From an uncultured Porphyromonadaceae bacterium (GTDB taxonomy: Bacteria > Bacteroidota > Bacteroidia > Bacteroidales > Muribaculaceae), in contig CAMWKV010000007.1 in assembly GCA_947174915.1 (NCBI GenBank), positions 1 to 32,220 of the forward strand: a stretch of 32,220 nt of DNA. The letters run 5' to 3'. The position numbers were made by a program, and so were the translations under genes. Under the pieces are notes generated by a model. The model made no database searches. It saw only the letters and a program-made list of their open reading frames with translations, and was not told where the DNA came from. This document shows, in pieces, positions 4,042 to 29,015 of this stretch. How positions within the stretch are numbered: position 1 is the stretch's first letter; each line of letters starts with the position of its first letter.

Positions 4042-4734
4042 CTAAGGCATCTTATTCTTTAGTTTGTCCAGTTCCTTTTTGCAGAACGATAAAATCACCT
4101 TACCCAAGAGAAATTTTTCAGTAGAGTACAAGCTCGGTTTACCGGCCATATCCCGTTGAAAATTAAGCTCAGAGTTTGTGATTGCATTTTCGAGTAACAC
4201 AGGATGCAACTGGAAGTTAAAACCACCGGTTATTTTAGCATCCACAAATTGTTTGAAGGTCACATACTGTTCCACATCCTCTGCTTTAATTGAGTCATAG
4301 AGATGATAATAGAGCCATAATTCAAAACACGGATTACACTGAGCTACACACCATGCCGAATATGGCTTGACTTCATCGTATTCATCTGATATTGAATTAT
4401 TTTTACGGCTACAATACTCTCTGAGAACATCTATCTTACCGTGTTCCTCCCATTGGTCGGTATCTATAGCGAACCATATCTGATCCTGTTGCATATAGTC
4501 AATGATATATCGACAGGAATCACTGAAGAATATACGTTCGGCCAACTCAAGTAATTTAACGGGATCGGTATGCCCGTCTTCCGATGGCACTGCTATTATC
4601 TCAAGATTCGAGGACAGACCCTCAAAGAACTTATAATAATCCGGCTCAGTACCATTGCCCTCGCATATGACGTAAATCTTGTTGGCATTCTTGGAGGGAG
4701 CCAGTTTATGATAATCTTTTCTTCGAGCTATCAT
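4042..4734 (-). CDS. RloB-like protein (putative defense-associated Toprim/RloB family)
   Basis: KIYVICEGNGTEPDYYKFFEGL N-terminus typical of RloB; coupled 1 nt downstream of an AAA ATPase. Confidence 0.8.
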   Translation of the reverse strand: MIARRKDYHKLAPSKNANKIYVICEGNGTEPDYYKFFEGLSSNLEIIAVPSEDGHTDPVKLLELAERIFFSDSCRYIIDYMQQDQIWFAIDTDQWEEHGKIDVLREYCSRKNNSISDEYDEVKPYSAWCVAQCNPCFELWLYYHLYDSIKAEDVEQYVTFKQFVDAKITGGFNFQLHPVLLENAITNSELNFQRDMAGKPSLYSTEKFLLGKVILSFCKKELDKLKNKMP

Positions 4735-4735
4735 A

Positions 4736-6061
4736 TCACCAGTTCAAGTCTGAAAGATTCGACAAAAATGGAATAGCGCCGTAACGGCCATGGAGATAGC
4801 CATTCTCTATATTTGCCGTCTTGTGGACATTATAGTCACTCAGTGGATAGAGTTGAGTAGCCTGTTCCACATCCTTTTGAGCGAACCATATCTCGTCCGG
4901 ACGAAATATTGACTGATCAAGTAGACAGCTCTCGTGAGTTGTAAAGATAATCTGCCCCTTGGCAGAAGTATTTTCCGAAATCCTGCTCATGATAGTCTTT
5001 ATCATAATAGGATGAATGCTGCGCTCTATCTCGTCGACGATAAAAATCCTGCTCTCTTTCAATATCCAGTAAAGTAAGGGAAGATACTCGATGAGCCGAC
5101 GCGTACCATCTGATTCATCCATCACCTGCATCTCTATATCTTTACCATCACGGGTGCGATGGACGGTAACTATCGACTTCAGAAATATAGTGTCATTCTC
5201 ACAGACTATATTAGAAAGATAGCTATACATGTTCTTCTGGAACATTACAGGTTCGCCGGGATTTTCTCTGGCAGCTTCGATGGCACGTGACAAGCCGGGG
5301 TCGCCCTTGGCATCTTCAATGTCCACCACTTCTTTTTTTACATCAAGGCGATAGATACCGGTCTGAAATTTCGGGAATACAGAATTGATATAGTCTTTGA
5401 ATTCAGCATCCGAGTCCATATAGTGCGAGATATACCCCATCTTCATATCAGGAAGCACCACCTGAAGATCTATCAGCCAACGGTAAGCCTCCGCTATCGG
5501 CGGGAACTCCTGAGGATAATACTTGCCGAAAAAAGCCAGCAAGAGCATATCGGGCCGCACAATACGCGTCAATACATCGGAGAACGTTTTATTATCCTCC
5601 TCTGAAATCTCGGACGGGGAGAGGGATATTTCGTTGCCTTTGCGCACAAAGAGTGGGATATCGTCCTTCTTCTCACATAGATAGAGTTCTTCCTGCTCAA
5701 TCTGCGTGCGAGTAAATACGATATGATAGTAATATATCGATTCGTTGACGAAGAACTCTATCGCCAACTCCGACGGCTTCATTCTGCTCTCGGCATCAAA
5801 CTTGAAAAACAAATCATCTGCGAAATAAACATCACCCAATTTTTCTTCAAGCATCATCTGCTTTAACAGATATATACAGCGGAGGAGATTACTTTTTCCC
5901 GCACCGTTGGCACCATATACGGCACTCATTCGCAAGGCCGTCACATGACCGCATTTTACCTTATGCCAGTCATGACTATGACTCTTACTGGAGGGAAAGG
6001 TGTTGAACTCTACAGCATCCTTGAACGATAGAATATTTTCAGCGGCAAATCGTAATAGCAT
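4736..6061 (-). CDS. AAA15/RloA-like ATP-binding protein
   Basis: LRFAAENILSFKDAVEF, Walker A GANGAGKSN, IFIVDEIERSIHP Walker B, TTHES. Confidence 0.85.
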   Translation of the reverse strand: MLLRFAAENILSFKDAVEFNTFPSSKSHSHDWHKVKCGHVTALRMSAVYGANGAGKSNLLRCIYLLKQMMLEEKLGDVYFADDLFFKFDAESRMKPSELAIEFFVNESIYYYHIVFTRTQIEQEELYLCEKKDDIPLFVRKGNEISLSPSEISEEDNKTFSDVLTRIVRPDMLLLAFFGKYYPQEFPPIAEAYRWLIDLQVVLPDMKMGYISHYMDSDAEFKDYINSVFPKFQTGIYRLDVKKEVVDIEDAKGDPGLSRAIEAARENPGEPVMFQKNMYSYLSNIVCENDTIFLKSIVTVHRTRDGKDIEMQVMDESDGTRRLIEYLPLLYWILKESRIFIVDEIERSIHPIMIKTIMSRISENTSAKGQIIFTTHESCLLDQSIFRPDEIWFAQKDVEQATQLYPLSDYNVHKTANIENGYLHGRYGAIPFLSNLSDLNW

Positions 6062-6317: not shown

Positions 6318-6806
6318 ATGAATTTCATGAAAAAAATAACTTTGCAGCCCACACCTAATTCCAAAGCTACTATTTTGAGCAACAAAGTAGTAGAAGTAAC
6401 GGCGCCCGATGGCGAAGTATTCCAAGTGCTATGCCAAGCAGGACAATATATCAGCGAAGCAACGCGCGACCACGAGTTATTCTTGATCGAGAGTATCTTT
6501 GACAATTGTTTTTCAGACGACAAAGAGCAGATGCTCAATAACATATGGAAAAATGCAATGTCAAACGAACTCTCCTTCATCGGAATAAGTCCCGGAGACA
6601 GGCAATGTGAACGAAGCCGTATCGGTGCCCGCATCAAACAGATACGAACAGAGCGAGGAATCGAAGCTCGCGACCTTGCCACTCTCGTGGGTATTGACCC
6701 CGCCAACTTAAGCCGAATAGAAAATGGGAAATACTCCGTCGGAATAGACATCCTGTCTAAGATTGCAGCCTCATTAGGTAAGAAAATTGACTTAATAGAT
6801 ATCTGA
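6318..6806 (+). CDS. XRE-family HTH protein (HTH at C-terminus)
   Basis: IGARIKQIRTERGIEARDLATLVGIDPANLSRIENGKYSVGIDILSKIAASLG. Confidence 0.85.
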   Translation: MNFMKKITLQPTPNSKATILSNKVVEVTAPDGEVFQVLCQAGQYISEATRDHELFLIESIFDNCFSDDKEQMLNNIWKNAMSNELSFIGISPGDRQCERSRIGARIKQIRTERGIEARDLATLVGIDPANLSRIENGKYSVGIDILSKIAASLGKKIDLIDI

Positions 6807-6807
6807 A

Positions 6808-7902
6808 ATGACTAACCATTTACATGCCCTCAATCGGGATAATCACCTCATACACATAAACGACGCCCAAAAAGGAAAGGAACACAGCTATACTTGTCCC
6901 GCCTGTGGGGCACCTATGATACCTAAACAAGGTAAAAAACAAGCTTGGCACTTCGCACATAAAGCCGACAAGGAAAATTGCTGTGCCGAGACATATCTCT
7001 ACAAAGTAGCAAAGCTCCGCATTAAGCAGTGCTTTGAAGAATCCTCGTCCTTTATCATCAAACCCGCTCAACGAGTAATTTGTAATGTAGAAGACTGCCC
7101 TGTAGGCCGATTAAAGCCTTGTGAATGGGAAAAGGAAGGTTCTCCTATTAACTTGAAAGAGAACTATGATACATGCGTCATTGATGCAATGTCAGACAAA
7201 TTTCATGCAGATTTATTGATTGTGTCTAAATCAAATGAAAACATTCCTCCGATACTAATTAATATCTCAGTCTCCACTACATATTGTGAACCTTGTGCAG
7301 TAACAGACTATAAGAAAATAAATCTACATATCAGTAGTGAGGAAGATTTATTGGAAATAGTAGGCAAAGCGACCATAAGCGAAACTATCAAAGAACCTGA
7401 GCAAAGGAATCCCTACGACAACGATAATGAGGAATATGAAGAATCTGAGCTTGATGAAGATATATCAATCCCCACTATCTTCTATAACTTCGATGATACT
7501 CCAGTATTTGAAAGACCAGACGAAAAACATCAGGCATATAAACATAGTTGGTGGATTAAACCTAACTATGGGTATCAATCTGATGAACCATCTGTTTTTT
7601 ATGGGTCAGGACGGTGTTTATCCTCTAATATTTCAAGCATCGAAAACTCAGTATTCTGCATACAGGCAAGATATAAAATTAATCGTGATTTTGCATTTAA
7701 GATATTAGCTCAAATCAATATCGGAATTAGATACTGCCCTATGTGTGAATTCTATGAATGGAATCGCTGTACAGAAAACCCTCCTTGTCCTACATACGCA
7801 GACAAATATGAAGCACAAAAGTGTAAGTTTTTCAAACAAAAGATTGATAAAACAGAAGAAATCCCCGAATATAAGGTGTATATAAATGGAAAGCCGCGCT
7901 AA
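6808..7902 (+). CDS. CoiA-like / zinc-ribbon nuclease-fold protein
   Basis: N-terminal YTCPACGAPMIPKQGKKQAWHFAHK, middle HADLLIVSKSNENIPPILINISVSTTYC, C-terminal Cys cluster; begins 1 nt after the XRE stop. Confidence 0.6.
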   Translation: MTNHLHALNRDNHLIHINDAQKGKEHSYTCPACGAPMIPKQGKKQAWHFAHKADKENCCAETYLYKVAKLRIKQCFEESSSFIIKPAQRVICNVEDCPVGRLKPCEWEKEGSPINLKENYDTCVIDAMSDKFHADLLIVSKSNENIPPILINISVSTTYCEPCAVTDYKKINLHISSEEDLLEIVGKATISETIKEPEQRNPYDNDNEEYEESELDEDISIPTIFYNFDDTPVFERPDEKHQAYKHSWWIKPNYGYQSDEPSVFYGSGRCLSSNISSIENSVFCIQARYKINRDFAFKILAQINIGIRYCPMCEFYEWNRCTENPPCPTYADKYEAQKCKFFKQKIDKTEEIPEYKVYINGKPR

Positions 7903-14922: not shown

Positions 14923-15981
14923 TTAGACAAGTTGCAGCTGGGCCTTTACGTTATCGACAGAGGTATTCAGCAGGGCCGCCGCTTTTGAGAAAGAGATTAT
15001 CTCATCGGCAAGCGCACGATACACCATTCTTACGAATCGCCCTGAGGTCTCGGGAATCGCAAGCGAACGCTCTACCAACGAATTGAACTCAGGGAAAATC
15101 TTCTTCTTTTTAAGGTAGCCCTCATATCGCCGTCCGGTAATGACTCCGTTATGTGCCAATGATTCCATTATAGAATCGATGGAAATACCGTACTGCTTTT
15201 GAATATCGGTCAGTTCAGCCAATGATATATCATGTCTGCTTTTTCCGAGCCTTGATTTCAGAACCCCGGAAGGCAGAAGAATCTCTCTGGCGAAAGTGTT
15301 ACAGGCATCTTCCATGACTTTATTTGAAACATCTTCGCCAAACTTCATCAGCAGATGACCGAACTCGTGAAGAAGGGTGAAGCGCTTCCTCTCGGAAGTC
15401 AGATTGCAATTTATGACAATCAAAGGGATATTGTCATTCGCATATCCGCTTAATCCCTCGAATGATTCAGATTCGGACACCTCGATAATCTTAATGCCAT
15501 TGTCCTCCAAGACCTCGATAACATTGGAGATACCATTGACACCTAAGCCGAGTTTTTGCCTGACTGAATTGGCTAAAGCTATCACGTCACCACCATTGGA
15601 AATCTGTTTGTGCTGAAGACTAAAAGAAGACGCAACACCGGAGAGTTGTTCAACTTCCAGATAGCGTTCAAGTTCCTCGCGCACTTTCTCCTTGACTGCA
15701 AGCGCATCCTTTTCTGAGAATCTGCTCTTTTTGCGGAACATCACCTTGTCAACTTCCACAGTAAAAGGACGGAAGAAATAATCAGGTTTTACGCCGAGAA
15801 CCATGCCGAGAGAAATCAACATCCGGCTATCAGGCATTGACTGACCTTTTTCATATTTGTTGATAGCCTGACGTGACACACTGGGCTGAACCGACTGGCC
15901 CAGCTCTTCCATGCTTATTCCTTTAATCAGTCTCGCTTGATTGAGCCTGCGACCGAATATATTTGAAGTGTCCTTACTCAT
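14923..15981 (-). CDS. XRE-family HTH plus ImmA/IrrE metallopeptidase domain protein
   Basis: N-terminal HTH (SMEELGQSVQPSVSRQAINKYEKGQSMP); HEFGH zinc-peptidase motif. Confidence 0.92.
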   Translation of the reverse strand: MSKDTSNIFGRRLNQARLIKGISMEELGQSVQPSVSRQAINKYEKGQSMPDSRMLISLGMVLGVKPDYFFRPFTVEVDKVMFRKKSRFSEKDALAVKEKVREELERYLEVEQLSGVASSFSLQHKQISNGGDVIALANSVRQKLGLGVNGISNVIEVLEDNGIKIIEVSESESFEGLSGYANDNIPLIVINCNLTSERKRFTLLHEFGHLLMKFGEDVSNKVMEDACNTFAREILLPSGVLKSRLGKSRHDISLAELTDIQKQYGISIDSIMESLAHNGVITGRRYEGYLKKKKIFPEFNSLVERSLAIPETSGRFVRMVYRALADEIISFSKAAALLNTSVDNVKAQLQLV

Positions 15982-16049: not shown

Positions 16050-16086
16050 GCGCGTCTATATACTTTCTTGCACCAACGGTTCTGTA
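16050..16086. repeat. Left arm of long inverted repeat pair (partner 22152-22188)
   Basis: gcgcgtctatatactttcttgcaccaacggttctgta; 34/37 to reverse complement of 22152-22188, first 21 nt exact. Confidence 0.85.
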
Positions 16087-16208
16087 CCATTCTTGGTTTG
16101 CTCAGGCGCACCACTTTCTTCGGTTGGATCAAGGGATGCCTTAATTTGCATTTCTAACTTATGCTCTAAGGAATTTGCTTCGAGGGATTCTTGGAGTGTC
16201 TTAAACAT
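16056..16208 (-). CDS. Small 50-aa '...VQESI' family protein, copy 1
   Basis: MFKTLQESLEANSLEHKLEMQIKASLDPTEESGAPEQTKNGTEPLVQESI; homologous to 20068-20220 (track ORF extends to 16280 via a non-ATG start). Confidence 0.7.
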   Translation of the reverse strand: MFKTLQESLEANSLEHKLEMQIKASLDPTEESGAPEQTKNGTEPLVQESI

Positions 16209-16285
16209 ATTGTTTGAGCTTTTAGATTTGTAAATGTATTGATTAAGTAGCGGTATAATTTTATCGTAATCCAAAATCAATTCAT

Positions 16286-16510
16286 ATGTACAAACAAATT
16301 GAAACTACACCCGAAATTACGTTACCCAACGGTGCTCACAGTAAACCAGTCGCAACATTAGCAGTTGAGTATGGCGGTATATGTCAAATTGTCAGGGATG
16401 ACCATTGCTATACTATTAAGTTGAAAAATAATAATGGGCAGTATGATGATACCACCCATATTTTTCCAGAAGCATTTGAAGTTCTTAAGACTTTGCCAAA
16501 CCCGCGTTAG
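16286..16510 (+). CDS. Hypothetical small protein
   Basis: 74-aa ORF MYKQIETTPEITLPNGAHSKPVATLAVEYGG... Confidence 0.45.
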   Translation: MYKQIETTPEITLPNGAHSKPVATLAVEYGGICQIVRDDHCYTIKLKNNNGQYDDTTHIFPEAFEVLKTLPNPR

Positions 16511-16869
16511 CAGTTGTGTTGAGTATTACAGGTGAAATCGTTACCTTCCAAAATATCAGCTTCAATATTTTCACGTTCGGCATTACTAACCCCCATTACG
16601 CAAAAGCAATTGGCATTATGCACATTAATATCGTTCTCATGGTCGTGGTCATAAAAACGACGATTTAAATGCTCAGTTTCGCCACAGTAAATCAAAGTGT
16701 GTGAAAATGACCCATTTTGTTGTTTATATCTTCTGGTAAAAATATAAACAGCACTTACATCGTTAAACACACCCTTGACGTCTTCAAAACAGTCAATGGA
16801 GTACATATTGAACTTGTACTCACGACCGCTCTTCCCTTTAATTGTAAAATGGTTGTCTAATTTTTTCAT
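16507..16869 (-). CDS. GIY-YIG nuclease-like small protein
   Basis: AVYIFTRRYKQ...LIYCGETEHLNRRFYDHDHEN...E arrangement resembles the GIY-YIG fold. Confidence 0.55.
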   Translation of the reverse strand: MKKLDNHFTIKGKSGREYKFNMYSIDCFEDVKGVFNDVSAVYIFTRRYKQQNGSFSHTLIYCGETEHLNRRFYDHDHENDINVHNANCFCVMGVSNAERENIEADILEGNDFTCNTQHNC

Positions 16870-16907
16870 ATTTTTTTTGATTTAAATGTTATATTATCTA
16901 CCAAGCA

Positions 16908-16939
16908 AAAAGCGTGCCAGAGAGATCCAGCACGCTTTT
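16908..16939. terminator. Perfect 10-bp hairpin terminator (bidirectional)
   Basis: AAAAGCGTGC (16908-16917) / GCACGCTTTT (16930-16939). Confidence 0.8.
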
Positions 16940-16975
16940 GTCGTCTTTATACTATTGTTAGAACTCTTCAATCTG

Positions 16976-17137
16976 TCATTTCTTTTTGCCAAACATAGCA
17001 CCGAGAACCATTCTGCCCACCTTTCGTTCCAAACCTTGTTTGGTCGTGGGGATGCCAGTCTTTCTGGCTATTTTCTGCTTGGCTGCGGTAATGCCGGCTG
17101 CTCTTTTGAGTGAAAAACTAAGTCCGGGGATTTTCAT
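16976..17137 (-). CDS. Hypothetical 53-aa basic protein, last gene of five-gene operon
   Basis: Manual translation MKIPGLSFSLKRAAGITAAKQKIARKTGIPTTKQGLERKVGRMVLGAMFGKKK*; 4-nt overlap with the upstream gene. Confidence 0.65.
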   Translation of the reverse strand: MKIPGLSFSLKRAAGITAAKQKIARKTGIPTTKQGLERKVGRMVLGAMFGKKK

Positions 17138-17253
17138 ATGTTTCCGATTAGTTTGTTAAGCCCATAGAACATGAGGAACACAAGTCCCCAAAACAACATC
17201 TTGAAGAAGTTGCGCCACATGTAAAGCAAAATTAGCAGAAGATACTTCCACAT
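17134..17253 (-). CDS. Hypothetical 39-aa transmembrane protein
   Basis: Manual translation MWKYLLLILLYMWRNFFKMLFWGLVFLMFYGLNKLIGNI*; two hydrophobic stretches; overlaps 16976-17137 by 4 nt. Confidence 0.55.
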   Translation of the reverse strand: MWKYLLLILLYMWRNFFKMLFWGLVFLMFYGLNKLIGNI

Positions 17254-17260
17254 TATTTCA

Positions 17261-18136
17261 TTAGAGCCCCTTGGCTTTGAATGACTTAACCATCTTCTTG
17301 ATTAAGTTGTCTATTTCGTTGGCGATACCGCCCATGAAAGCGGCTCGGGCAGTGGGATTTTTAAGTTTGCCAAATCCCTCCGATGTCATTGTTTTGAAGT
17401 TGAGTTCGTTGCGAGGTGAGGCAGTGGCACACGCAGCCCATGCGGAATGGTCAACGTCAACATCTATTAACGGGTCAACGCCGGTTAAAGCTGCGACTAA
17501 TGCAGGACCGGTTGCGACCTCTCCTTTGTAGCGCACTCCAAAGAAATATCTCTCTTTCATGATGATAGAGAATGTCACAGCCTTGTTTTTACGGTCTTTT
17601 GTTTTATAGATGTCAAAAGTAACACCGTAGCGTTTGTAACGGGGATTTTTGACGTAGTCTGCCACATCGGCTGTGAAGTCTTTCTTCTCGATGTCGTACC
17701 CTTTGGCGATGAGTTGGTCTTGCAACGCGTTCCAGAAGTAGAGCTGCAACTGCTCGTCGCTCATATTGTCGGTTTCCACCGCCTCACGCCCAGCGGCGGC
17801 AATCGTCATGTTGCCTGGCATCAACTTTGTGTTATCAGAGTTAGCCACTTTTACTGTGATGCCAAAGATGTCCTTCATCTTTGCTTCAAAGTTGCCGACC
17901 TGCAGGTTTCCCTTGCAGGTAAGTTCGCCTCCCTTTACATTCTCACCGCTACGGATGGATGCGAGGGTGGCATTTTCGGGTGCGAACTTCGCGCCTTTGT
18001 ACACGCGCAGGGTCGCTCCGAATGCGTCCTTGAATTGTTTTCTCAGACTGCTGACCGTCATACGGCCATTGATGTTGAATTCTGCCATAGTAAAATTGTC
18101 TTTTATGGAGTTGATAAGATTGTTTAGTACACCCAT
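17261..18136 (-). CDS. Hypothetical protein with duplicated N-terminal domain
   Basis: Internal repeat GRMTVSSLRKQFKDAFGATLRVYKG-AKFAPENATLASI vs GNLQVGNFEAKMKDIFGITVKVANSDNTKLMPGNMTIAAA. Confidence 0.8.
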   Translation of the reverse strand: MGVLNNLINSIKDNFTMAEFNINGRMTVSSLRKQFKDAFGATLRVYKGAKFAPENATLASIRSGENVKGGELTCKGNLQVGNFEAKMKDIFGITVKVANSDNTKLMPGNMTIAAAGREAVETDNMSDEQLQLYFWNALQDQLIAKGYDIEKKDFTADVADYVKNPRYKRYGVTFDIYKTKDRKNKAVTFSIIMKERYFFGVRYKGEVATGPALVAALTGVDPLIDVDVDHSAWAACATASPRNELNFKTMTSEGFGKLKNPTARAAFMGGIANEIDNLIKKMVKSFKAKGL

Positions 18137-18157
18137 AATTTTCTATGTTTTCGTGGT

Positions 18158-18400
18158 TTATTTTATTCTTTTCAAAGATGCTTTCGCGTTCTCAATATCC
18201 CGCTTGAGACTTTCTATTCTCCTATCATGAGCAGCTGCCCTGTCTATCTTTGATTTACGATAGCTGGCTTTGCCTGATGGAGTGGAAGTTTTCTTTATTA
18301 AGTTCGCATAATAGGCATTATCTTTCTTCTTGGCTTCCCGTTCTTTGGCGATAGAAGCTCTAAGGTCGATAATGCGTTTTTTATAATATTCTTTGCTCAT
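18158..18400 (-). CDS. Hypothetical basic coiled-coil protein
   Basis: 80 aa, K/R/E-rich helical composition; 4-nt overlap with the upstream endonuclease gene. Confidence 0.7.
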   Translation of the reverse strand: MSKEYYKKRIIDLRASIAKEREAKKKDNAYYANLIKKTSTPSGKASYRKSKIDRAAAHDRRIESLKRDIENAKASLKRIK

Positions 18401-19269
18401 TGTTCGGTATCAAGTTTATATGTGTCCGAGATACGTTCCCAAACACACATGTTTTCTTTGATTGATTTTTCTTTGTTCAGCCGGAACACGCCGACAAAGC
18501 GGTAGGTATTCATACCAAGCCAATCGGCATATTTCAAGAAGGTTATTCGCTTAACACCTTTGTCAATATGCGACATCATGTGTCCGCGACGCTCCGACTC
18601 CTCCTTTGGATATTCAGTAATTGTCAGTTTGTCGTCAGATAACTTATTGTACCATTTAGAGTGATTTTCGTTAGGCCACCAAACGAGGTCTTTATTTTCC
18701 TTATTTGGTACCCAGACTGCCGATACTCTCAAAAATCCTTTATGCTTTGGTTTTGTGCCAAATATAGCAGCTATATCATCTATGGTATTGAGCGAAACAT
18801 TATCATCTACGCTTATTACACCTCTTTGTCGCACTTCTTCGGGAGTGTCAGTGCCTTTCCATGGAATAAGAGGTTTTTCGTTTATCTTCTTTCTTATGAA
18901 ATCGATAACCTTATCTGTACGCTGATTAAGTTCATCAAGAGAGCAAGCGACAGCGTTGCCGTTTACTACATTGTAGCAATCAATAACCTTGACATCTGCA
19001 TATTGCGATATTTCAGTATTGCGGATTCTGTCGGCTTCTTGATTTTTGTAGTGGGCAGGCTCGTTTATTTCAACAACGAGATTAATTTGAGGAAGATATA
19101 AATCTGCAAGAGCATACTTTCCCTCTTTTCTCACAACATACTGCTGGAAAATGAAATGGATGTCTGTGTTATCAAGGGCATTCCAAATGCGGTGTATTAC
19201 ATAGCTTTCCAATCTCTTGTGGGAGATTTTGGTTAGCATTCGGGTAATGTAATCTAATTTGTAGTCCAT
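18397..19269 (-). CDS. Putative modification-dependent (PvuRts1I/AbaSI-like) restriction endonuclease
   Basis: Start taken at MDYKLDYITRMLTKISHKRLESYVIHRIW; Vsr/PD-(D/E)XK-like core YALADLYLPQINLVVEINEPAHY; C-terminal VSAVWVPNKENKDLVWWPNENHSKWYNKL...NTYRFVGVFRL suggests an SRA-like domain. Confidence 0.5.
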   Translation of the reverse strand: MDYKLDYITRMLTKISHKRLESYVIHRIWNALDNTDIHFIFQQYVVRKEGKYALADLYLPQINLVVEINEPAHYKNQEADRIRNTEISQYADVKVIDCYNVVNGNAVACSLDELNQRTDKVIDFIRKKINEKPLIPWKGTDTPEEVRQRGVISVDDNVSLNTIDDIAAIFGTKPKHKGFLRVSAVWVPNKENKDLVWWPNENHSKWYNKLSDDKLTITEYPKEESERRGHMMSHIDKGVKRITFLKYADWLGMNTYRFVGVFRLNKEKSIKENMCVWERISDTYKLDTEQ

Positions 19270-19630
19270 ATCTCGTTGGTTTGTATCTATACACGAAAAA
19301 AGAGCGACAGCCAAAACTTTCTCCTATTTGGTTAATTAGGCTCTGGAATGCCTTGACGCTCAAATAAGTAAAAAGCAGTCTGCGCCCTTGTCGGGTACAA
19401 ACCAACATTTCGACTTATTATTTGTGGGCGTCAATGTAAATTTTCCAGATTTAATTAACCCAAATAACTTGTCTAAAAAGTCATGTTTGAAATATGTCTT
19501 GCTTTAGTCTTTCTGTTTCTTGCTTCGGCGGATTTTTAGTTTTACCATCCGCAAATTAAGCAAAAATTTCTGACATACACAAATCCATATCGCAGAACTG
19601 CCTAAAAATTTGGTGGTTGTCTCATCATAA

Positions 19631-19664
19631 AAATACCCACCCGTATTGTTCCGAGTGGGTATTT
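19631..19664. terminator. Hairpin terminator
   Basis: AAATACCCAC (19631-19640) / GTGGGTATTT (19655-19664). Confidence 0.7.
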
Positions 19665-19719
19665 GGCATTATACTTATCAAATTATGTTTTGTTGCAAAC
19701 CAAAGATATTTTAACATTT

Positions 19720-19930
19720 ACCTCCTACATAAGTTTCGTCTACTTGCGTATCATTATCAAATTCTGCGTCATCATCACGTAGATTTTCGCGAATACGACC
19801 GAGCATAAACCATGCAGTCTTTTGGGTAACATTTATGTCGCGGGCAAGTTGAGCCGAACTTATACCTTTCTGGTGGGATATAAAGAGGTATATAGCATAG
19901 AACCACTTTTTGAGCGGAATGGAGTCATTT
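19720..19930 (-). pseudogene. ISXO2-like (IS1595 family) transposase fragment
   Basis: PLKKWFYAIYLFISHQKGISSAQLARDINVTQKTAWFMLGRIRENLRDDDAEFDNDTQVDETYVGGKC*; truncated on both sides within ORF 19711-20061. Confidence 0.8.
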
Positions 19931-20067
19931 ACTTTGTTCTTAAATTTTATTACAGAGTAATTGTACCGTCCAAACACGCGTTTGTTAAATTTTGAGGAAA
20001 GAAAATTATGCTTCGATGAAATTTTTCTTTCTTTTCTTTGGAATAAATATATTAACCCCAAAAAAAG

Positions 20068-20220
20068 ATGATGCAGACACTACAAGAAGCACTATACGCA
20101 AACTCCTTAGAACACAAGTCAGAAATGCCGATTAAGGCTGCTTTGGAACCGGAAGAAGAGGAGGAAAAACAAGCGCAAACCGAGAATGATACAGAATTAT
20201 ATGTGCAAGAGAGTATTTAG
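20068..20220 (+). CDS. Small 50-aa '...VQESI' family protein, copy 2
   Basis: Manual translation MMQTLQEALYANSLEHKSEMPIKAALEPEEEEEKQAQTENDTELYVQESI*. Confidence 0.65.
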   Translation: MMQTLQEALYANSLEHKSEMPIKAALEPEEEEEKQAQTENDTELYVQESI

Positions 20221-20334
20221 GCATTACAAACAATGTAATAACAAAATATTTTTGTACCTTTGTGCGTTATTAGTCACAGATTTTGTGATAAACTTGACAA
20301 CCCATTATGTTACAAATGAGGCCATAGATACAGC

Positions 20335-20910
20335 ATGAATACTGAATTTAATAATTACTACACAAGTCTTGCCGAGGCTTTCGCTAGCGGAGAATTGTTC
20401 TTTACCCGTAACACCGACTGTCTCCACAATGCAGCCATTATGAAGCTGATGTTGGAGAAGGGAACTCGCATATCAATGTACTGTGGCTCAATGTCGATAT
20501 TCAAAAATAAATTTTATTCGAATATACTTGATGACAACGGTAAGCCGGATATAGATATAAAGCGACAGGTATGTGAAGCCTTCGTTGACTTTATAAATCG
20601 TCCCGGTACTCATATTGACATAATATTAGAGAAGGAACCGAATAATCTAATCGATGATCTCATCTTTGATGTGTCATATCTTAATAATGACTCTGTCAAT
20701 ATATTCCAAATCCCTAATATCATCAGAGAAAAATCTAATTTAAATCATTTCTCATTCATTGATAATTCTGAGATTACACGTTTGGAAACCGATCCAGTAC
20801 AGCATACTGCTCTATGTAAGATAGGTTTGTCTGACAAAATTAACTCTCCCGTAGAGTCTTTTAATACACTTCTTGAAGCCTCAAGCCGTGTTAACATTGC
20901 AAACTGCTAA
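20335..20910 (+). CDS. Hypothetical cytosolic protein of a two-gene module
   Basis: 191-aa ORF; preceded by a TACCTTTG -7-like element at 20255-20262. Confidence 0.75.
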   Translation: MNTEFNNYYTSLAEAFASGELFFTRNTDCLHNAAIMKLMLEKGTRISMYCGSMSIFKNKFYSNILDDNGKPDIDIKRQVCEAFVDFINRPGTHIDIILEKEPNNLIDDLIFDVSYLNNDSVNIFQIPNIIREKSNLNHFSFIDNSEITRLETDPVQHTALCKIGLSDKINSPVESFNTLLEASSRVNIANC

Positions 20911-22078
20911 TAACGGATTTCTCAGTGAAGATACTTTTTTGGGGGTTATACTAACTCTCAATGTCCTTTGTATGTTCTTCAGTAAGCAGAACAATTTTAT
21001 TTTTGGCTTGCTTTCGGAGTTATGGCAACAACTCAAAGTTTCAATAAAAAGTTTACAAAAGTCCATTACAGAAGATGCTGATCGTTATAAAACCGATGAA
21101 CGCCTAAAAGCTTTACATGATATAACCGAGGGAAGTGTCTCATGTCAAGATGACACTATTACCCAACTTGCACTTCAAATACAGTATACTTTTGAAAATA
21201 CCATTCAGCAATTAAAGACCGATTTAACGCCATGCCTTTTGAGAATGGATCGTATAGAGAACTCTAACGAACAAATCCGTGCCCCGTTTTTTACCTTATT
21301 GTTTGGTCTTGCAATCTTTTCCATCAATATGATTTGTAAATGGTGTTCTAATGAGAATATAGAGTTAGTATTACCATCAGTGTGGATTTTTACACTTTTA
21401 TCTATTATATATTGGAGTTCCATTTGGATTGCATTCTGTTTTAGAAGCATGAAAGAACAGAGAGAGGAGAAAACTAAAAGACCCAGCAGTTTTTGGTCAA
21501 AAATTGACGAAAGGTGTAATTGGCTGTTGGGTAGTACAATTAAAATCATTTTATGTGGTGGAGTTGCACTCATAATCCTGCGAGCAAGTAATAATTATAT
21601 AGTAAATATTCCTGTATTGTGGCAGTTTACATTAGTAGTATGCGTATTACTGCTATCTATTTGTATAATTGGTATTTGTCGTTTGATTTGGTGTAGTGTA
21701 AAAGGGAAATATTCGCCTATGCACGTTTTGGGTCATATTGCAGCATTCATCGTTTATTCTACAATATTAGGATTTATATACAATGATTGTGGCTACAATG
21801 CATGTGATATTTTATTTTTCAATTATAATGCACTGAATGGTTGCGTAATATTTTTTGCTCTTGTTAACAGTATAATTTTCCCATTTATTCTGCCACATTT
21901 TAAATACCGCAAGCCATATAATGAAACGATGTCGGAATTGCGTAATAACAGAGAGAAGCTGAATAATGCTATAAATTTGTTTAACGATGATTTCAATATG
22001 TGGTCGCGAAGGAAAGTTATTAGTGACCTAGAAAAAGAAAAGGCCCAAAAGCAGAAAGAAAAGGCTTCAAAAGATTAG
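20873..22078 (+). CDS. Multi-pass membrane protein with N- and C-terminal coiled coils
   Basis: Several hydrophobic segments (FFTLLFGLAIFSINMI, VWIFTLLSIIYWSSIWIAF, IIILCGGVALII-like, LWQFTLVVCVLLLSICIIGI); 38-nt overlap with the upstream ORF, so the true start is uncertain. Confidence 0.75.
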   Translation: MKPQAVLTLQTANNGFLSEDTFLGVILTLNVLCMFFSKQNNFIFGLLSELWQQLKVSIKSLQKSITEDADRYKTDERLKALHDITEGSVSCQDDTITQLALQIQYTFENTIQQLKTDLTPCLLRMDRIENSNEQIRAPFFTLLFGLAIFSINMICKWCSNENIELVLPSVWIFTLLSIIYWSSIWIAFCFRSMKEQREEKTKRPSSFWSKIDERCNWLLGSTIKIILCGGVALIILRASNNYIVNIPVLWQFTLVVCVLLLSICIIGICRLIWCSVKGKYSPMHVLGHIAAFIVYSTILGFIYNDCGYNACDILFFNYNALNGCVIFFALVNSIIFPFILPHFKYRKPYNETMSELRNNREKLNNAINLFNDDFNMWSRRKVISDLEKEKAQKQKEKASKD

Positions 22079-22151
22079 ATATTCTAATTATTGATGTTAT
22101 TCTTGCCCAAATTATGGCGATATTCATTTGTTAATGTTAAACTATACATTA

Positions 22152-22188
22152 TATAGAACCTTTGGTACAAGAAAGTATATAGACGCGC
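22152..22188. repeat. Right arm of long inverted repeat; contains a 3' remnant of a '...EPLVQESI*' gene
   Basis: gaacctttggtacaagaaagtatatag = E P L V Q E S I stop (22156-22182). Confidence 0.8.
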
Positions 22189-27609: not shown

Positions 27610-27903
27610 TCAGAGTATTGTGATGGCATCGCGTGTGATTTGTTTGAGGAAAGGTGGTGAGAGATGGGCGTGACGTCGCACCAGATCTACAGAAGTATGG
27701 AGCAGTTGTTCGAGAAAATCTTTCAGTGCCGACATCAAAAAAATCTTCGGTGGCATATCCACCAAGATATCAACATCACTGTCAGTGCGATAGTCTCCGC
27801 GAGCCATTGAGCCGAAAATACACAGACCGGTGACTCCGAATTCAGATTGAATTCGAGGCATATTCTCATTCAGCAGCCTTATACATTCGTGCGGTGTACA
27901 CAT
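27610..27903 (-). CDS. MNT-type nucleotidyltransferase (antitoxin-like)
   Basis: LCIFGSMARGDYRTDSDVDILVDM (GSxAxG...DxD). Confidence 0.85.
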   Translation of the reverse strand: MCTPHECIRLLNENMPRIQSEFGVTGLCIFGSMARGDYRTDSDVDILVDMPPKIFLMSALKDFLEQLLHTSVDLVRRHAHLSPPFLKQITRDAITIL

Positions 27904-28124: not shown

Positions 28125-29015
28125 ATGGAATATATCTCAGTAAAAGAATGGGCAGCGAGCCATGGAGTATCTGAACGTACGGCTCGTAACTACTGTGCTC
28201 AAGGTAAAATCGACGGCGCACGCTTAATAGGAAAGACATGGAATATCCCCGTCGACGCTGCCTTACCTCAGCGCAGGAAAAAGAGTAATATATCTCCATT
28301 ACTGGCAACCTTGAAGGAGCAAAAGGCAGCCCGAATCAAAGGTAATATTTACCATCGTGTACAGATAGACCTTACATATAATTCAAATCACATAGAGGGT
28401 AGCCGACTCACCCATGATCAGACTCGTTTTATTTTTGAGACAAATACTATCGGTTCTCCCGACGGTCCTGTAAATGTTGATGACATCATCGAAACGACTA
28501 ATCATTTCCGAGTCATAGATTATATAATAGATACAGCCGAGGAGCCTCTTACGGAAGCATATATAAAGTATCTTCACTTTCTTCTGAAGTCCGGCACTTC
28601 TGATGAACGCAAAGATTGGTTCAAGGTTGGAGACTACAAAATGCTACCCAATGAGGTGGGAGGTATGGATACAGTAGCACCTGAGAATGTAGGAAAGGAG
28701 ATTCGAAAATTACTGAAGGAGTACAACGCCCGCAAGTATCCAACATTTGAGGATATACTTGACTTCCATCAACGGTTTGAAGCTATCCATCCATTTCAGG
28801 ACGGTAATGGGCGTGTAGGACGGTTGATAATGTTCCGCGAATGTCTAAGGCTCGGATATGTACCTTTTATCATCACTGATAGCTTGAAGATGTTCTACTA
28901 TACCGGGCTACGCAATTGGCCCGATATCAAAGGTTATCTGATGGACACCTGCCTGTCGGCACAGGACAGTTTTAAACTACTCTTAGACAAATTCCGAATC
29001 AAATATAAGGACTAA
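28125..29015 (+). CDS. Fic-family protein with N-terminal MerR/excisionase-like HTH, class II autoinhibited architecture
   Basis: Fic motif HPFQDGNGRVGR (28788-28823); N-terminal inhibitory-type motif SNHIEG; N-terminal VKEWAASHGVSERTARNYCAQGKIDGARLIGKTWNIP. Confidence 0.92.
   Translation: MEYISVKEWAASHGVSERTARNYCAQGKIDGARLIGKTWNIPVDAALPQRRKKSNISPLLATLKEQKAARIKGNIYHRVQIDLTYNSNHIEGSRLTHDQTRFIFETNTIGSPDGPVNVDDIIETTNHFRVIDYIIDTAEEPLTEAYIKYLHFLLKSGTSDERKDWFKVGDYKMLPNEVGGMDTVAPENVGKEIRKLLKEYNARKYPTFEDILDFHQRFEAIHPFQDGNGRVGRLIMFRECLRLGYVPFIITDSLKMFYYTGLRNWPDIKGYLMDTCLSAQDSFKLLLDKFRIKYKD

Follow-up and report, generated by a model that had tools for sequence, protein, structure and literature searches.

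The stretch of DNA analysed here, referred to as the window, is 32,220 nucleotides long and comes from an uncultured Porphyromonadaceae bacterium of gut type. Five minus-strand genes, A to E, occupy positions 16976–19269 as a compact cassette of 2.3 kb. All the open reading frames described in the earlier note are present at the places it gave, and its junctions are exact: A and B overlap by 4 nt, B and C are separated by 21 nt, C and D by 7 nt, and D and E again overlap by 4 nt. The hairpin it placed at 16908–16939 is a perfect inverted repeat followed by a T tract. The note had located the operon inside an island, which can now be sharpened to an IS1595-like element bounded by inverted repeats. 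The features are as follows.

18397–19269, minus strand: gene A, 290 aa, putative PvuRts1I/AbaSI-family modification-dependent endonuclease with an N-terminal PD-(D/E)XK domain and a C-terminal SRA-like domain
18158–18400, minus strand: gene B, 80 aa, basic (pI 10.3) and probably coiled-coil, a core gene of a larger Bacteroidales cluster
17261–18136, minus strand: gene C, 291 aa, with a duplicated domain at residues ~17–118 and a PDC-S26 C-terminal domain at ~120–291
17134–17253, minus strand: gene D, a 39-aa single-pass hydrophobic peptide (GRAVY 1.1)
16976–17137, minus strand: gene E, a 53-aa highly basic peptide (pI 12.0), found in larger clusters too
16908–16939, minus strand: intrinsic terminator hairpin at the operon end, perfect stem with T tract
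16051–16086, plus strand: terminal inverted repeat on the downstream side of the cassette, 36 bp, CGCGTCTATATACTTTC..., identical at 33/36 positions to the repeat at 22152–22187
22152–22187, minus strand: opposite terminal inverted repeat, pairing with that at 16051–16086
19711–20061, minus strand: IS1595-family transposase remnant, internally deleted (NCBIfam IS1595, 1.1e-19)

The five genes are conserved as a set. A profile scan with an alignment of B, taking one genome per GTDB species, returned 151 relatives, and the best 80 of these, ranked by similarity to the B of the window, make up loci L062–L141. All of L062–L076 carry A-B-C-D-E in one order and on one strand, with A cut off by the contig start in L068. 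These 15 loci span several families and are labelled Bacteroides, Phocaeicola, Barnesiella, Odoribacter, Prevotella, Porphyromonadaceae and Onthomorpha; most come from MAGs and some from isolates, and L074 is Leyella lascolaii khD1. Because the list is ranked by similarity of B and holds only the best 80, the number of five-gene relatives is at least 15. The co-conservation on which the earlier note had staked its proposal is therefore borne out in 15 other Bacteroidales loci. Spacing among these relatives ranges from −8 to +11 nt for A/B, 13–24 nt for B–C and 0–17 nt for C–D, and is −4 nt for D/E in 14 of the 15. A hairpin lies 3′ of E in 14/15, its sequence varying and being little conserved, and comparison with Rfam returned no RNA element. 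Gene D, which is translationally coupled to E by the 4-nt overlap, is present in 15/15 relatives at 43–100% identity, as is E in 15/15 cassettes, and D has no family match in Pfam, PADLOC or NCBIfam. All five genes are under purifying selection, D in most pairs, with Ka/Ks of about 0.05–0.15 for A and C; D and E mostly fall in that range too, and the values that could be calculated for B are very low. The B of the window is much closer to those of L062 and L063 (Ks 0.5–1.1) than to those of L065, L066 and L069 (Ks >2 or saturated), whereas A and C show the opposite pattern; gene B thus appears to be mosaic, having been exchanged between cassettes by recombination. We found no published description of the five-gene cassette, or of the larger cluster discussed below, in the open-licence PMC literature.

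The cassette is mobile, since it lies between IS1595-like inverted repeats with two exact 8-bp target duplications. In blastn comparisons of the window with the other loci, short matches at fixed distances on either side correspond to the ~36-bp inverted repeat, which brackets the cassette in L062, L063, L067, L069, L072 and the window. The two 8-mers flanking the element match each other exactly in L067 (TCAAATTA) and in L069 (TAAATGAA), with a chance expectation of about 3e-9; the window, whose transposase is a remnant, shows no recognisable 8-bp duplication. In L063 and L072 an intact 331-aa transposase gene immediately precedes A (L063 copy, PF12762, 1.1e-35), and relative to the L063 copy the transposase of the window carries internal deletions (blastn). 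No transposase reading frame was called in the L062 element. The element shares with the IS1595 family its Zn-ribbon plus ISXO2-type transposase, terminal inverted repeats and 8-bp duplications, but here carries a defence-type five-gene passenger, with the transposase broken in the window. Closely related copies of A in MAGs assigned to different families (Odoribacter, Prevotella, Porphyromonadaceae) are consistent with transfer of the cassette. A degenerate third inverted-repeat end near 20199–20220 adjoins the second copy (20068–20220, plus strand) of a small end-encoded peptide, the first copy being at 16056–16280 (minus strand), so that the interval 16051–22187 has the appearance of IS1595-like elements nested in one another or rearranged.

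Four neighbouring genes were considered as further parts of the cassette and rejected because none is found beside it in the 80 loci. The first, at 16507–16869 (minus strand), lies just 3′ of the operon terminator and has a weak GIY-YIG match (PF01541, 7e-4), and the second, at 14923–15981 (minus strand), lies directly beyond the repeat at 16051 and encodes a protein with HTH and M78 peptidase parts (PADLOC RmrA, 5e-39). The other two, at 20335–20910 (plus strand, 191 aa) and 20873–22078 (plus strand, 401 aa with hydrophobic segments), form an overlapping pair within the element of the cassette and gave no meaningful match in Pfam, PADLOC or PHROG. Elsewhere the window holds another defence-type pair at 4042–6061 (minus strand), an AAA_21 ATPase followed by an RloB-like protein (PF13707, 1.8e-18), as well as an HTH protein with a CoiA_N-domain protein (6318–7902, plus strand), a small nucleotidyltransferase (27610–27903, minus strand) and a Fic-family protein (28125–29015, plus strand).

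By family and residues gene A is a PvuRts1I/AbaSI-family modification-dependent endonuclease, with cleavage activity predicted from this membership. The earlier note had suspected a PvuRts1I-like enzyme and proposed comparison with the known structures. The match proved highly significant and spans both domains in Pfam (PvuRts1I-like_N PF21598, 1.5e-31; SRA PF18491, 2e-35), in PADLOC (mREase_II, 1.2e-77) and in the PDB (AbaSI, 6.8e-27; PvuRts1I, 1.8e-22). Residues assigned to catalysis and to the modified-base pocket of PvuRts1I (PMC4027163, PMC4157451) have direct counterparts in A. Catalytic K17, E20, D57, E68, E71 and H74 correspond to K18, E21, D56, E67, E70 and H73, and pocket residues W205, P207, W215, N217 and E228 correspond to W197, P199, W206, N208 and E219, all of which are invariant in 18 homologues. 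A therefore shares with PvuRts1I and AbaSI the two-domain architecture, the catalytic residues and the SRA pocket, but differs in its EID motif, which reads EIN in most cassette members; N69 of A occupies the position of PvuRts1I Asp70, and the Asp is retained in L067, L093 and L054. The second difference concerns context. Known members are single genes, a habit rather than a defining property of the family, whereas A heads a five-gene operon in 16 loci. B–E were not seen beside the plasmid relatives of AbaSI that we inspected (Priestia, Paenibacillus, Providencia), nor was B, C or E found near the A homologues L053 and L054 elsewhere in the order. In the tree of A the cassette genes group together, along with L093. 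Gene A is an ordinary member of its family heading a conserved, mobile, five-gene form.

The earlier note had described C as a protein with a duplicated domain. The duplication is real but is limited to about residues 17–118. A full-length AF2 model of C has a pLDDT of 85, and in Foldseek the structures closest to its duplicated part were linear di-ubiquitin and ISG15 (E-value 0.011), identical to the top matches obtained from an independent model of a stand-alone C relative (E-value 0.011). Taken one at a time, the repeats align with ubiquitin-like structures over about 45–60 residues; a joint superposition of the two is poor (rmsd about 15). Homology to ubiquitin was not found by sequence, since profile comparison with ubiquitin and NEDD8 was negative (hhalign probability 0.4%) and Pfam gave no match, leaving the predicted tandem ubiquitin-like repeat as a lead at the level of fold only. 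ISG15-like bacterial ubiquitin-like systems (Bil) are the known comparison group. C resembles them in its predicted tandem repeats, again at fold level only, but lacks a Gly-Gly C-terminus, and the cassette has no E1, E2 or deubiquitinase genes; no E1/E2/JAB partner was detected among A–E or the scanned neighbours with Pfam, PADLOC and NCBIfam. Residues 124–284 of C match the C-terminal part of PDC-S26 (PADLOC, 3.3e-13, profile positions 244–408), a phage-defence candidate that combines a PDDEXK_4 nuclease with this C-terminal domain. In C the nuclease half is absent, with no nuclease domain matched in Pfam, and the duplicated ubiquitin-like-fold region stands in its place; the PDDEXK_4 nuclease that larger-cluster relatives carry is matched by the N-terminal part of PDC-S26. 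Comparison of C with a viral structure library gave nothing convincing, and searches of phage and plasmid records found no relatives of C.

Many other Bacteroidales carry B, E and the N-terminal domain of C clustered together, without A. Among the best 80 of the 151 B loci, 63 lack A. In larger clusters B is 60–79% identical (11 loci) and E 51–81% identical (10 loci). Across 394 Bacteroidales genomes B occurs in 15 and a relative of either half of C in 27, with both in 14 (p about 1e-17), and no relatives of B were found in plasmid records. Gene counts for the larger clusters cover 60 loci in which B was called, with a census of the top 25 families. They comprise an ion channel in 50, genes of the C N-terminal type in 48, a TM-OmpA protein in 31, a Ser/Thr kinase in 28, a pyroglutamyl peptidase in 26, TerB in 18 and a KAP NTPase in 15, and E in at least 14, a lower bound set by the gene caller. 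To this set the larger clusters (L077–L141, L034–L057) add variable nuclease, KAP, TIR or LRR genes. The known or candidate anti-phage effectors in them are a PD-T4-3-like GIY-YIG nuclease, PifA/QatA-like KAP, TIR and PDDEXK_4/PDC-S26, and in PADLOC several of the variable genes match PD-T4-3 (five members), PifA, QatA and PDC-S26. The GIY-YIG anti-phage nuclease PD-T4-3 (PADLOC) has a relative (1.5e-46) in several larger clusters with B, E and the C N-terminal domain; its fold differs from the PD-(D/E)XK plus SRA architecture of A, and it is absent from the cassette. Immediately upstream of B stands A in the cassettes and L093, GIY_YIG_2 in six big clusters and a gene of the C N-terminal type in 13 others. 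In L093 the A-like gene (41–43% identity) stands between genes of the C N-terminal type and B. This arrangement fits interchangeable effectors on a shared partner set, and the neighbours of the larger cluster suggest that it is immune in function. A tentative proposal, with the odds against it, is that its voltage-gated-type ion channel, TM-OmpA, TerB, kinase, tandem ubiquitin-like-fold proteins, B, E and swappable nuclease, KAP or TIR form an undescribed envelope-linked immune chassis. A–E would then be the smallest version of that chassis, mobilised by a transposon and using a nuclease for modified DNA as its effector.

Our preferred model, to which we give a probability of about 0.5, is that the five genes form one transcription and functional unit, a mobile restriction cassette directed against modified-cytosine phages and served by its own accessory complex, which may be linked to the membrane. 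The sequences themselves show the gene content and its conservation, the intact catalytic and pocket residues of A and the mobility, from which enzymatic activity, target base, complex formation and membrane location are inferred. An IS1595-like transposon would carry A–E between Bacteroidales as a passenger. A would cut close to a modified cytosine (5hmC, glucosyl-5hmC or similar) that it has flipped into its SRA pocket, so that such phages would be restricted and unmodified host DNA left unharmed; a literature search did not find a Bacteroidales-infecting phage with a 5hmC genome. B–E would be dedicated partners of A, and three of these have relatives within the larger cluster. C may serve as a two-part adaptor, its ubiquitin-like repeat acting as a protein–protein interface, while its C-terminal domain, which in defence-candidate proteins follows a nuclease, might act in sensing. 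D may be a membrane anchor, with B and E as basic bridging subunits. As the likeliest mode of action, B–E would anchor the nuclease, or gate it, at the inner membrane, the site of phage DNA entry. We hold this membrane step to be doubtful, its basis being one hydrophobic 39-aa peptide, D.

The alternative that survives best is that A is an ordinary stand-alone enzyme and that B–E make up a mobile module of their own, serving for instance in regulation or control of the toxicity of A; this module would share the promoter and transposon of A and take no part in cleavage. AbaSI and PvuRts1I act alone in vitro without a partner and the inspected plasmid relatives are stand-alone, so A need not require B–E for cutting; the frequent occurrence of B without A likewise argues for a separate module. 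However, all 15 relatives keep the five genes at nearly fixed spacing, no A-only version was seen among cassette-type A genes, and A is directly upstream of B in L093 too, which leaves this alternative unlikely. Less probable again is abortive infection, in which A would cut or sense modified phage DNA and D, with E, would be a membrane-damaging effector released or activated via C. The hydrophobicity of D and its coupling to E, the PDC-S26 C-terminal domain in C and the ion channels encoded in larger clusters are in keeping with such a mechanism; against it, the cassette has no recognisable antitoxin-like pair and D belongs to no matched family. That A is nuclease-dead, a modification reader recruiting or repressing something else rather than a restriction enzyme, is suggested by N69 in the EIN motif, but is very improbable given the Asp retained in L067, L093 and L054 and the invariance of the counterparts of K17, E20, D57 and E71, replacement of which abolishes or nearly abolishes PvuRts1I activity (PMC4027163).

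The modification-dependent enzymes of the PvuRts1I family are considered to work unaided, whereas retention of the same four partners in a conserved and mobile operon suggests that in Bacteroidales the enzyme acts as part of a complex or under the control of one. The 2.3-kb cassette also offers a compact way into a far larger modular cluster with interchangeable nucleases, and that cluster, with its link to the cassette, may be the more important discovery of the two. Finally, the cassette predicts the existence of, and selection by, Bacteroidales phages with modified cytosine.
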